From Chloroflexota bacterium (GTDB lineage: Bacteria; Chloroflexota; Anaerolineae; Anaerolineales; Villigracilaceae): a stretch of 11,952 nucleotides of DNA. The DNA is taken from positions 1 to 11,952 of the forward strand of contig JAJYOH010000119.1 in assembly GCA_021796315.1 (NCBI GenBank). Direction: 5' to 3'. Of this stretch, positions 8,230 to 11,952 are shown one piece after another (positions within the stretch are counted from its first letter, which is position 1; every line of letters begins with the position of its first letter). The notes beneath the pieces were generated by a model. The model was not told the origin of the DNA, searched no databases, and was given only the letters and a program-made list of their open reading frames with translations. The position numbers and the translations under genes are program-made.

Positions 8230-9081
8230 TTATACAGCTAAATCAAAAGGTAAGTCACTTATATCCCGCAATCGGCGGCCTGCCACAAGAGTATCCAACA
8301 TATCCATCTGATCTTCATTATTCGTTTCACCAATTGCGTCCCTCATCTCGTGAAGAGCAAAGTGATAAACGCAGTCTAGGTCACCAGTGCCAAGTGCGAG
8401 TGATGCGATTCGGGTCGGGAGCGGCTCAGCAGTAACAGCTACAACATGGGGCAAATGACCCTTACGATGTCGGACAAGGTTAAGCGCTTCTGTACGTGTG
8501 TTTTGACTACGATCGCTTCTTATTGTCCATTTACATGAGATACTAGCATGTAAAAGATAATGACGAGTCGCGGAGTTACGTCCCCGAAATGGCGTGTAAC
8601 GAGCAATATCCTCATCGTCGGATATTACCTGCTGAAAACTATTGATCTCTGCATCCTGAACAGGGGAACGTCCCACAACAATATCCGGCTTAATAATATA
8701 TTCTTTTCCCAAAGCTATTGCAAGCTCATTGCTCTGGCTCACAAGCCTTTCAAGTTCTGCTAAATGTTTATATTGATCGAACTCGGAAATCGCTAAATCT
8801 GTAGCATAATGCCATTGCCCAGGTCTCAAATGTGCAAGCAATCCAAAAGCTTTCTGAAGAAAATCCCGAGTTATGTCTTCGAAACGGCCACCGGTTGTCT
8901 GCCCCTTCAAGTTTTCGTCAGGGATTTCATGGCCCAATCTATTCACAATTCCCCAAGCAATGTCTCGGCTTGCCTTATTTGTTTTATCTGCAAAGTTTGG
9001 ATATTTTGGATTACCAGACTGGATACGGATTATCTCTCTGGCTACGTTTTGATGATACTCTCTACGAAGATTTAGCAGCAT
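8230..9081 (-). CDS. Type II restriction endonuclease, NgoMIV family (predicted GCCGGC)
   Basis: A 283-residue nuclease closely resembling NgoMIV along its length, as recalled: shared blocks include HASISCKWTIRSDR (178-191), EALNLVRHRKG (198-208), VTAEPLPTRIASLALGTG (216-233), DCVYHFAL (236-243) and the ending DISDLPFDLAV. The PD...CK...E active site is intact: D133 (KPDIVV), K184 (CK), E198, plus E68. The RxDR element (R188, D190, R191) that reads central CCGG is present, as are equivalents of the residues reading the outer pair (Q61, R224; Thr34 where NgoMIV has Ser). Recognition of GCCGGC is therefore predicted. The family works as tetramers needing two sites. ATG 9081 has GGGAG at 6 nt. 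It lies 15 nt after the methyltransferase stop, so modification is made first. The DNA is AT-richer than the flanking metabolic genes, suggesting acquisition by transfer. Confidence 0.92.
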   Translation of the reverse strand: MLLNLRREYHQNVAREIIRIQSGNPKYPNFADKTNKASRDIAWGIVNRLGHEIPDENLKGQTTGGRFEDITRDFLQKAFGLLAHLRPGQWHYATDLAISEFDQYKHLAELERLVSQSNELAIALGKEYIIKPDIVVGRSPVQDAEINSFQQVISDDEDIARYTPFRGRNSATRHYLLHASISCKWTIRSDRSQNTRTEALNLVRHRKGHLPHVVAVTAEPLPTRIASLALGTGDLDCVYHFALHEMRDAIGETNNEDQMDMLDTLVAGRRLRDISDLPFDLAV

Positions 9082-9096
9082 ATACCTCTCCCTAGT

Positions 9097-10488
9097 TTAT
9101 TCAGATGGTTTATGAAACCCGATAACGAATTCTTCATGCATACGCCGTTGAATTTGAGAATTTTTGTCAACCTGTGAGCTGGCTGGTAACATTCGACGAT
9201 TTCTATCCAATTGGCGAATTCCCACCATTGGGACTTCAAAGCCAATGTCTTTCCCAATTGCGACCAAAGAATGGTCAACCCGCGCATCAATGCCAGCAAG
9301 TGTCGAATTCCCAACGACAACAATGGCAGATTTTTCAGGTTTCAAGACTCTAAATAATTCTTGTAAAACCAAAGTCATCTCAACATAGTAGCGTCTCAAT
9401 GAAATGCCTTTAGATTTACTTTTTTGACCGATCTCAGAAATAAGGTTTTCCACTTTTCCAGGTAACTTAGTGACTGGTAAATCAACAAAACCTTCACCAC
9501 CAATATAAGTTTTTCGTTTTTCGGTTAAGAGATCGATTGGATATCCAAACCACACCAATGAAAATTTATGGGCGCGCATATAATCTATAGCATTAGACGC
9601 GTATGGTGGAGAAGTAACAACTAAATCTACACTATTCGGCGGTAACGCCAGCAGTTGTGCACTGCCAAAACTAATAACGGGGGAAAGATTTGAAGATGCT
9701 ACCTCAATTACCCCTCGCAAATTCTGATTGAGTTTTTTCTCAAATTCATCTATGGGGGAACGCAAAGTCTTAACAAGATGACGCTTGGCCTCATTTCGGT
9801 CACCTGCCAATACCTTGCCGCCTTTTGAAAAGACAGTTTTTGCTTTATGAGGGCGAGTATGAGCTAAATCCAAAGCGAGCGAAACGCCGCCTGTTTTGGT
9901 AATAATAATTGATGAAAAAATCAACTTGTAAAAATCTTTCATCTTGACAGATTCAATCTTTTCGATCTCCTCGCTTAGGGCCAACAACTCTAATTGAACT
10001 TCTGCCGAAAACCAATAATCAATGAACTTTATTGTCTTCTGGTCAAATCGTTTATTTTTCTCCGCTTTAAGCGACTTTGGATAGAGACGCACTATCTTTC
10101 TAGCGTGTTTCAAAATTCGCTCACCTACAACGCTAAGCTCTGCAATGTTATAGGTTTCGAGTTTCGTTTGAGTGAGCAATATTGCTAACGGGTCAATATC
10201 AAACCCAACGGCTTGTCTGCTATTTAAATAAGCTTCTAACAACGTAGTGCCTGATCCCATCATCGGATCAAAAACAATATCACCAGGATTTGTTAATTCC
10301 AAGATAAACTTGCGAGGCAACTGAGGAGGAAATTTAGCCGGAAAGGAGTGTGCTTTATGAGAAATATGTGCATCTTTGGCGGCGTCTTGAAAATTCAAAT
10401 CACCCAACAATAATTTAACGAGTTTCGCACTAGGCGACTCTAATTTATTATTCCTTGCCTGAAAAGTTAACGCTAATTGGGTTGCCAT
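9097..10488 (-). CDS. DNA amino-methyltransferase (TSPPY type), partner of the NgoMIV-like nuclease
   Basis: A 463-residue SAM-dependent DNA methyltransferase. HSFPAKFPPQLPRKFI (47-62) looks like motif X, followed by motif I FDPMMGSGTT (73-82), the acidic motif II GFDIDP (95-100), and catalytic motif IV TSPPY at 292-296. FRVLKPEKSAIVVVGN (379-394) lies further on. About 210 residues separate motifs I and IV, so the target-recognition part probably sits between them, an alpha-like order. SPPY is typical of N4-cytosine enzymes; no 5mC motifs (PC, ENV) are seen. Because GCCGGC has no adenine, the partner site would require m4C. ATG 10488 has no Shine-Dalgarno; TAAAAT seven bases upstream suggests a leaderless message. 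It is AT-rich, like the nuclease gene that follows it. Confidence 0.88.
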   Translation of the reverse strand: MATQLALTFQARNNKLESPSAKLVKLLLGDLNFQDAAKDAHISHKAHSFPAKFPPQLPRKFILELTNPGDIVFDPMMGSGTTLLEAYLNSRQAVGFDIDPLAILLTQTKLETYNIAELSVVGERILKHARKIVRLYPKSLKAEKNKRFDQKTIKFIDYWFSAEVQLELLALSEEIEKIESVKMKDFYKLIFSSIIITKTGGVSLALDLAHTRPHKAKTVFSKGGKVLAGDRNEAKRHLVKTLRSPIDEFEKKLNQNLRGVIEVASSNLSPVISFGSAQLLALPPNSVDLVVTSPPYASNAIDYMRAHKFSLVWFGYPIDLLTEKRKTYIGGEGFVDLPVTKLPGKVENLISEIGQKSKSKGISLRRYYVEMTLVLQELFRVLKPEKSAIVVVGNSTLAGIDARVDHSLVAIGKDIGFEVPMVGIRQLDRNRRMLPASSQVDKNSQIQRRMHEEFVIGFHKPSE

Positions 10489-10614: not shown

Positions 10615-11013
10615 TCATCTCTCCACCGGATTATCGGGGTATTCCTCATCCCACTGTGCGTATAACTCATCCACTGACTTCTTGATACTCTTCTTATTCA
10701 ATATCTTTGCATAAAACTTGGTGCGGTCGTTCAACTGTCTCAGTATCTCAGGCTCGGGGCGGAAAAGAATATCCAGCGTGCCGTCCATGCGGATGGTCGG
10801 CGTGAACGTGCCTAATCCCTCAATCTTGACTGCCCGTCCGGTGCGGTGAGCCATCAGAATGGTGTCGCGTAATTCATAAGTCACAAAGAGAACCTCGCCG
10901 GTGTTCAGTCCTGTGTGCTGGGCAATATCTTCCACCACCTGTCGCGTCTGAAGCGTCCGCTCCCGCTTGATCTCCGGTCGAAACTTACGAATGGCAGTGA
11001 TTTTTCTAGCCAT
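10615..11013 (-). CDS. HU/IHF-like DNA-binding protein
   Basis: A 132-residue basic protein with an HU/IHF fold core at about 24-95: the helical part VVEDIAQHTGLNTGEVLFVT (26-45), a second helix to RTGR (57-60), the signature turn VKIEGLGTFTPTIR (62-75, equivalent to VxLxGFGTF in HU), and a short arm ending RPEPEI. The usual PTTG/RNP tip of the DNA-binding arm is missing, so it is a divergent member. Basic extensions flank the core (residues 1-23 and 100-112) and the last 20 residues are acidic. ATG 11013 has a strong GGAGG at 6 nt. It lies upstream of the R-M genes on the same strand and immediately downstream of a palindrome array that could be its operator. Roles could be nucleoid architecture, gene regulation or phage/plasmid-type DNA organisation. 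Confidence 0.8.
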   Translation of the reverse strand: MARKITAIRKFRPEIKRERTLQTRQVVEDIAQHTGLNTGEVLFVTYELRDTILMAHRTGRAVKIEGLGTFTPTIRMDGTLDILFRPEPEILRQLNDRTKFYAKILNKKSIKKSVDELYAQWDEEYPDNPVER

Positions 11014-11068
11014 GAATCCCTCCGATTCAGCCTTGAAATGTTTGCGTCCCGCCTTGATTTTACCAAAA

Positions 11069-11142
11069 TCTCGGCGAGCTTTTTAAATATCTCGGCGAGA
11101 AAAATAAATATCTCGTCTAGAAAATATTTTTTCTTGCCGAGA
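11069..11142. repeat. Array of four 11-bp palindromes at exact 21-bp spacing
   Basis: Four sites fit the palindrome TCTCG-N-CGAGA: 11069-11079 (TCTCGGCGAGC), 11090-11100 (TCTCGGCGAGA, perfect), 11111-11121 (TCTCGTCTAGA) and 11132-11142 (TCTTGCCGAGA). Their centres are 11074, 11095, 11116 and 11137, exactly 21 bp apart, two helical turns. Each 10-bp spacer is made only of A and T. All sites would face the same side of the helix and the A/T tracts would be in phase. The first site falls between a candidate -10 of the HU-like gene and its -35 region. A cooperative repressor operator or a partition/nucleoprotein site is likely. Confidence 0.75.
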
Positions 11143-11317: not shown

Positions 11318-11952
11318 ATGCAAAGTGTTGTCGTTACTGGTGTTTCGACGGGAATCGGCTGGGGAACTGCGAAGGTTTTGATTCAAAAAGGCTTCCGTGT
11401 TTATGGAAGTATACGAAAGCAACAGGATGCAGAACGGCTTACCAATGAATTTGGCGAGAACTTCGTCCCGCTGATCTTTGATGTCACAGATGAAACAGGC
11501 GTGCAAGCCGCAGCGCGGCGCGTTCGCGAGCAATTGAACAGCGAGACTTTATTCGGGCTGGTCAACAATGCGGGCATTGCTGTCCCCGCGCCATTGGTCC
11601 ACCAACCTACCGACGATTTTCGTTGTCAGCTTGAAGTGAATCTGGTCAGCGTGTTGATTGTCACAAAAGCCTTCGTCCCGCTGCTCGGCAGTGATCGCTC
11701 ATTGCACGGCAAGCCCGGACGCATTATCAACATCAGTTCAGTCGGAGGCAAAATTGGCGGTCCATTTCTCGGCGCCTACGCTGCATCCAAACATGGATTG
11801 GAGGGATTCTCGGAAAGCCTGCGCCGCGAGTTGATGCTTTACGGAATTGACGTCATCATCGTGGGTCCCGGTTCGGTCGCGACCCCGATCTGGGACAAGG
11901 CCGAACAGGTTGATCTATCATCCTATGCGGATACCGAATACGTCGATGCGGC
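11318..11952 (+). CDS. SDR-family oxidoreductase (partial, runs off the right edge)
   Basis: An open frame of 211 codons with no stop before the window ends. It is a classical short-chain dehydrogenase: TGVSTGIG at residues 7-14, FDVTD at 54-58, NNAG at 83-86, and the catalytic set N108, S141 (ISSVGG), Y154 and K158 (YAASK), then PGSVATPIWD at 184-193. SIRK after the second strand, with Arg in place of the NAD-specific Asp, hints at NADP(H). It is a different subgroup from the SDR at 7152. ATG 11318 follows AGGAG at 6 nt. It diverges from the HU-like gene across a 304-bp region. The substrate is unknown. Confidence 0.88.
   Translation, partial: MQSVVVTGVSTGIGWGTAKVLIQKGFRVYGSIRKQQDAERLTNEFGENFVPLIFDVTDETGVQAAARRVREQLNSETLFGLVNNAGIAVPAPLVHQPTDDFRCQLEVNLVSVLIVTKAFVPLLGSDRSLHGKPGRIINISSVGGKIGGPFLGAYAASKHGLEGFSESLRRELMLYGIDVIIVGPGSVATPIWDKAEQVDLSSYADTEYVDA

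Follow-up and report, generated by a model that had tools for sequence, protein, structure and literature searches.

A helically phased palindrome array upstream of an HU-like gene in a Chloroflexota bacterium, a very probable operator with counterparts before related genes

The window, that is, the whole stretch of 11,952 nucleotides analyzed here from a Chloroflexota bacterium (contig JAJYOH010000119.1), carries an HU-like gene followed by genes for a DNA methyltransferase and a restriction endonuclease (Table 1). This arrangement had been proposed in the initial annotation and was confirmed by Pfam for all three products (PF18291, N6/N4 methyltransferase, and PF09015 endonuclease). An SDR gene in divergent orientation begins at 11318, and neither Pfam nor NCBIfam gave a match at E 0.001 for the 159-aa protein encoded at 1676–2152 on the minus strand. 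The HU-like gene is preceded by four 11-bp palindromes with centers at 11074, 11095, 11116, and 11137; these positions and the constant 21-bp step proved exactly as first described, and all three spacers are indeed purely A/T (TTTTTAAATA, AAAATAAATA, and AAATATTTTT). The description of the palindromes as a fourfold TCTCG-N-CGAGA holds strictly for the copy at 11090–11100, which matches TCTCGNCGAGA perfectly, while the other three copies carry one mismatch each. Scored at a 21-bp step, the best set of four sites reached 37/40 in the window, as compared to a maximum of 26 among 200 random sequences of equal length from a first-order Markov model, and the self-identity at 21 bp was 37/53, as compared to a maximum of 31 in such sequences. 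Neither value would be expected by chance.

Table 1. Positions within the window of the array sites, the putative promoter element, and the HU-like gene with the two genes downstream of it
Feature	Coordinates	Strand	Remarks
HU-like gene, 132 aa (PF18291, HU-HIG)	10615..11013	-	40.8 bits versus cut-off of 26.2; probable binder of the array
N6/N4 DNA methyltransferase	9097..10488	-	PF01555; downstream, probably incidental
NgoMIV-family restriction endonuclease	8230..9081	-	PF09015, E 9.8e-113; probably incidental
Putative -10 box TAAAAT of the HU-like gene	11057..11062	-	TG at 11065-11064, giving an extended -10
Operator site 1 TCTCGGCGAGC	11069..11079		1 mismatch; closest to the HU-like promoter
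Operator site 2 TCTCGGCGAGA	11090..11100		perfect, 0 mismatches
Operator site 3 TCTCGTCTAGA	11111..11121		1 mismatch
Operator site 4 TCTTGCCGAGA	11132..11142		1 mismatch

Relatives of the HU-like gene were collected from Anaerolineales genomes with a profile of the family. Absence of the array upstream of orthologous HU-like genes, or loss of its spacing, had been named beforehand as an outcome that would speak against the first interpretation; neither was observed, with exceptions at two loci (L135 and L133; L and G numbers denote loci and genomes). Four sites are present upstream of L010, L011, and L012 and three upstream of L013, all at a 21-bp step and with the gene-proximal site lying 65 or 66 bp ahead of the start codon. 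By a three-site scan, TCTCG-type arrays were detected at L010–L013, L093, L134, L188, L189, and the window. The two exceptions escaped the scan and were recognized by visual inspection: at L135, three sites are separated by one step of 21 bp and one of 22 bp, and at L133, four degenerate sites remain in register. At L009, the protein of which is 72–73% identical to those of L010–L012 and the window, four sites occupy the same positions as in L010–L012 with TCAAGNCTTGA in place of TCTCGNCGAGA. Spacers are 93% A/T, as compared to 42% for the sites, in the 11 genes of the window's two clades, and the corresponding values for the other arrays are 72% and 49%. Upstream of the HU-like genes of L014 and L015, two palindromes alternate at 21 bp, each repeating at 42 bp, as if one array served two specificities.

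HU-like genes were found in 28 of 301 genomes sampled from the order, in 36 of 152 genomes of one family, and in 48 of 396 genomes sampled from the class (some of these matches being weak), with 21 such genes in G008 alone; no HU-like relative was found by search in viral contigs or plasmid records. Scanning of the 300 bp upstream, with all periods from 15 to 30 allowed and a threshold score of at least 20, yielded a strong three-site array in 35 of 110 HU-like upstream regions (111 genes less one with under 120 bp upstream). The period was 21 bp in 21 of these genes, 22 bp in 13, and 18 bp in one (L114, the match at which resembles an ordinary hairpin), and arrays comprised three to eight sites by the scan. 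The same score was reached in 6 of 2276 control stretches located away from HU-like genes in the same loci, these being overlapping, 300 bp long, and mostly coding, and thus unmatched to promoter regions. The six matches represent three places, one of which is an array ∼0.6 kb upstream of the L017 HU-like gene that was counted in both L017 and L118. As a matched control, the 300 bp preceding other frames of 200 aa or more were scanned, with one match in 202 regions, again the L017 array, and shuffling of the HU-like upstream regions gave a match in 1 of 110 sets of five shuffles. An earlier control set was discarded because it still contained duplicates of HU-like upstream regions and arrays fetched by pattern. 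With a laxer score of 18.3, 45 of 110 HU-like upstream regions were positive versus 24 of 2276 control stretches. A strong array within 300 bp is absent from 75 of the 110 upstream regions, which counts against the explanation favored below. The architecture is rarer in more distant HU-like genes: a score of at least 20 was obtained for 4 of 42 distinct genes, always with a 22-bp period. Among the loci L035–L087, which are mostly from Bacteroidota, 1 of 51 genes reached a score of 20. This gene (L086, from a Bacteroidales MAG) is accompanied by a CAACGNCGTTG array at 22 bp. Separately, the IMG/VR contigs L001–L008 each contain at least two TCTCGWCGAGA palindromes, several with TCTAG/TCTCG variants nearby, and part of L003 matches Synechococcus phage S-SRM01 over a short length at 83.5%.

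The palindromes of paralogs within one genome are mostly different, and related proteins in other genomes tend to have alike ones; L127 and L031 of G008, with one palindrome in common, are an exception. Mean operator distance was 0.351 within protein clades across genomes (102 pairs) versus 0.524 within genomes across clades (50 pairs), a result matched in extremity by 2 of 5000 shuffles. This test left out L126 and L133 (the scan having chosen an A/T register for the latter) and kept L172 in a register two bases off, which works against the conclusion. Agreement between palindrome and protein inside clades is partial, L009 being unlike its close relatives, and this counts against self-binding. 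Across genomes, a TCTCG pair (at most two mismatches) was detected in 14 of 152, namely in 9 of 11 genomes with a best HU-like match at E ≤ 2e-52 and in 5 of 141 others (p 1e-9). In eight of those nine genomes, the pair is located at the HU-like gene, and in G337 it is located elsewhere. G021 and G001 possess related HU-like genes and no TCTCG pair, which likewise counts against the favored explanation. Splitting by A/T spacer gives 9/11 versus 1/141, a split picked after the matches had been seen; the unsplit comparison is 9/11 versus 5/141. As for the five pairs in other genomes, the spacers in G135, G268, and G233 are not A/T-rich, the pair in G244 has a mixed spacer and falls within a long frame, and that in G279 looks like a real two-site array. 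A TCCTG triple was detected in 8 of 152 genomes, in seven of them just upstream of an HU-like gene as judged by coordinates, the eighth (G381) being a plain tandem repeat. Both patterns were derived from arrays at HU-like genes, and the informative part is therefore their rarity elsewhere; the pattern search added one new case, G035.

Since palindromes track the paralog more closely than the genome, the HU-like protein is the likeliest binder of the array, and we consider such binding probable; the simplest reading would be that each HU-like protein recognizes an array of its own. Alternatively, the operator of the HU-like gene may be bound by an unlinked regulator. Binding by the HU-like protein is something that we infer, HU proteins are usually largely unspecific in packing DNA, and some arrays lie near other genes, for example, uvrC/cinA and rsmG. 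However, the many palindromes found before different HU-like paralogs of G008 would require many regulators, no neighbor is common to many loci, and TCTCG pairs co-occur with a related HU-like gene, and on balance, we regard an unlinked regulator as unlikely.

The HU-like protein of the window exceeds the gathering cut-off of PF18291, and its structure model (a monomer model with a pLDDT of 94.4) displays the HU fold, as in the HU/IHF superfamily (DNABII), over residues 17–96. Members of that superfamily act as DNA-bending dimers and have a long β arm with a conserved RNP tip. In contrast, the modeled hairpin of the HU-like protein is short (strands 68–74 and 80–86), and [RK]NP is present in none of 110 aligned rows over residues 61–100. 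The absence of this usual DNA-bending tip counts against the HU-like protein as the binder of the array. Two further differences from the superfamily are a C-terminal extension of ∼50 residues and the association of the HU-like family with specific palindromic arrays. In PF18291 proteins, the HU part may be joined to a wHTH, Ig, or Gly-rich part; in the protein of the window, residues 79–132 lack a Pfam match, and the model shows a pair of short strands and, at 114–124, a helix. Residue-level co-variation linked no protein residue to the palindrome, the best column being residue 9 with a maximum-statistic exceedance of 34/1000. A helix at approximately residues 36–50 was considered as the reader of the palindrome and dropped, since L188 (TCTCG) and L009 (TCAAG) share most of that helix despite their different palindromes.

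With respect to the putative promoter, which reads on the minus strand, the center of site 1 precedes the −10 box by 12 bp. Of 12 related genes, 10 possess an extended −10 (TG-N-TATAAT, matched at 5/6 positions or better) at phase 12 of the 21-bp register, and none was detected at a different phase; this register is common to TCTCG, TCAAG, TCACG, and TNCCG palindromes. Overlap of the sites with the gene's own predicted promoter in fixed register, a feature of autoregulatory operators, is thus seen in these 10 of 12 genes. Phase was used instead of the last listed site, since the scan had included a weak fifth site past the −10 of L013. Within the 12-gene set, no extended −10 in register was found in L188 or L189, the latter having TATAAT in phase, without TG, one empty slot away. 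L133 and L135 stand outside the set; L133 has an in-register extended −10, L135 an in-register TATAAT lacking TG, and their addition gives 11/14. The −35 hexamers are weak both in the putative HU-like promoter of the window and in related genes. In the 22-bp class defined by TCCTGNCAGGA (TCCTG), TATAAT occurs 10 bp past the center of the first site in four of seven genes (L193, L203, L175, and L025), a weaker hexamer occurs 10 bp after the second site in L023 and L026, and L195 has neither. This position of TATAAT implies that the later sites would sit at and beyond the start point, suggesting a layout typical of repression. No −10-like hexamer was found by search in five of eight genes of clade 1, and the downstream hexamers of clade 2 are at least 44 bp from the nearest site, both of which speak against the favored explanation. 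The cooperative operator envisaged in the initial annotation gains support from these comparisons, the step of the array and its position relative to the −10 box being kept before orthologous HU-like genes, and the array is very probably an operator of that gene in the window.

Our preferred explanation, held with modest confidence, is that the array serves the HU-like gene as its operator and has the HU-like protein as its ligand, acting by cooperative negative autoregulation. HU-like dimers would each occupy one 11-bp palindrome, and the 21-bp step, corresponding to two helical turns, would stack the dimers on one face of the DNA with the A/T spacers between them. Site 1 would fill the stretch from the −35 position to the extended −10, and since it lies between these elements, a bound array would exclude RNA polymerase, leading to cooperative repression of the HU-like gene's own promoter. 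Related paralogs share the geometry, with protein and palindrome both changed, which would give many private operators. The HU-like protein, if it is the binder, is quite likely a repressor. A bound HU-like protein might instead activate its own promoter, this positive autoregulation replacing the weak −35. The combination of an extended −10 with weak −35 hexamers in the putative promoter is consistent with activation, but the last site overlaps the −35/−10 spacer, and in four TCCTG-class genes, sites would lie at and beyond the start point; activation is accordingly judged improbable.

Some arrays are found away from HU-like genes, and these count against a purely autoregulatory role, although they may be further targets or remnants. 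Arrays with no HU-like gene found nearby are located at G008:C6, G008:C158, G008:C36, and G337:C46, at G008:C164 before rsmG, and, as two-site arrays, in G236 and G279. At L277 (G008:C147:10753–10887), seven CTTCNGAAG sites at 21 bp lie between the divergent uvrC and cinA genes; this 3-kb locus contains no HU-like gene, and its palindrome is the same as that before two HU-like genes of G008. At L162 (G003:C34:3461–3534), four TCTCG-type sites at 21 bp are flanked by the 3′ ends of two genes, one for a histidine kinase and one small, and thus do not mark an obvious promoter. Two other arrays, L199:2500–2573 (TAAAGGCTTTA at 21 bp) and L017:5323–5400 (TACTGNCAGTA at 22 bp), are ∼0.6 kb from an HU-like gene and fall outside the 300-bp search.

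A centromere-like or nucleoprotein assembly site had also been suggested as the role of the array. Chromosomal anchoring or a centromere-like function, with promoter position being secondary, would be compatible with the helical phasing and with arrays lacking an HU-like gene, one of them between convergent genes (G003:C34). However, TCTCG pairs (at most two mismatches) occur only in front of the HU-like gene in four genomes (G002, G004, G005, and G113), the TCCTG triple occurs at one place each in G005, G113, G010, G367, and G372, and the register to the −10-like box is fixed; these observations do not support a centromere role, and we consider a site of this kind very unlikely.

Among 20 neighborhoods, no neighbor was common to many array loci: the largest cluster was the HU-like gene itself (12 loci), the second (four loci) corresponded, judging from coordinates, to a frame running antisense across the HU-like gene, and all other clusters listed reach three loci. 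Partition centromeres of the parS/parC type, for comparison, adjoin a gene for a partition NTPase. The next gene in L009–L013 is unassigned or encodes an HTH, Y1_Tnp transposase-like, GMC oxidoreductase, or HNH protein (the last on the opposite strand), with no conserved link to restriction-modification genes among these loci. Specific control of the downstream restriction-modification genes by the array, as the same-strand order of HU-like, methyltransferase, and endonuclease genes in the window might suggest, is exceedingly improbable, and the link appears incidental, given that the genes that follow vary among L009–L013 and that no neighbor is common to many loci. An IS200-like (Y1_Tnp) transposase gene is located immediately 3′ of the HU-like gene at L011:6428–6991, as identified by Pfam; at L135 and L177, a similar gene after the HU-like gene was recognized from the look of its translation only.

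Returning to repression by the HU-like protein, we lean slightly towards a broader proposition, namely that these proteins form a sequence-specific HU-fold family, in which each paralog would read its own 11-bp palindrome and form a filament with a 21- or 22-bp step on its own promoter, with private codes diversified within one genome (G008). If each member does read a private palindrome, the family would already supply a collection of cooperative operators, each distinct and all very regular in geometry. Because natural switches from TCTCG to TCAAG, TCACG, and TNCCG exist at constant promoter geometry, the family would also provide direct access to the question of how an HU fold recognizes sequence when the usual arm tip is missing. 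Literature searches, covering openly accessible journal papers, listed no description of such arrays.

Cooperative operator arrays are known from the met boxes of MetJ and from NrdR boxes. Like these, the arrays described here comprise several symmetric sites over a promoter, spaced onto one helix face; unlike these, they have a regular 21- or 22-bp step, they accompany a protein of a different fold, and their palindromes vary between paralogs. In XRE-family and toxin-antitoxin autoregulators, a small DNA-binding protein is reportedly linked to palindromes in its own promoter (PMC12565409). The HU-like gene resembles these systems in encoding a small DNA-binding protein with palindromes in its own putative promoter and differs from them in the HU fold and in the regular phased arrays of three to eight sites. 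Relative to known autoregulatory operator arrays, what stands out is the combination of an HU fold with palindromes diversified at constant geometry.
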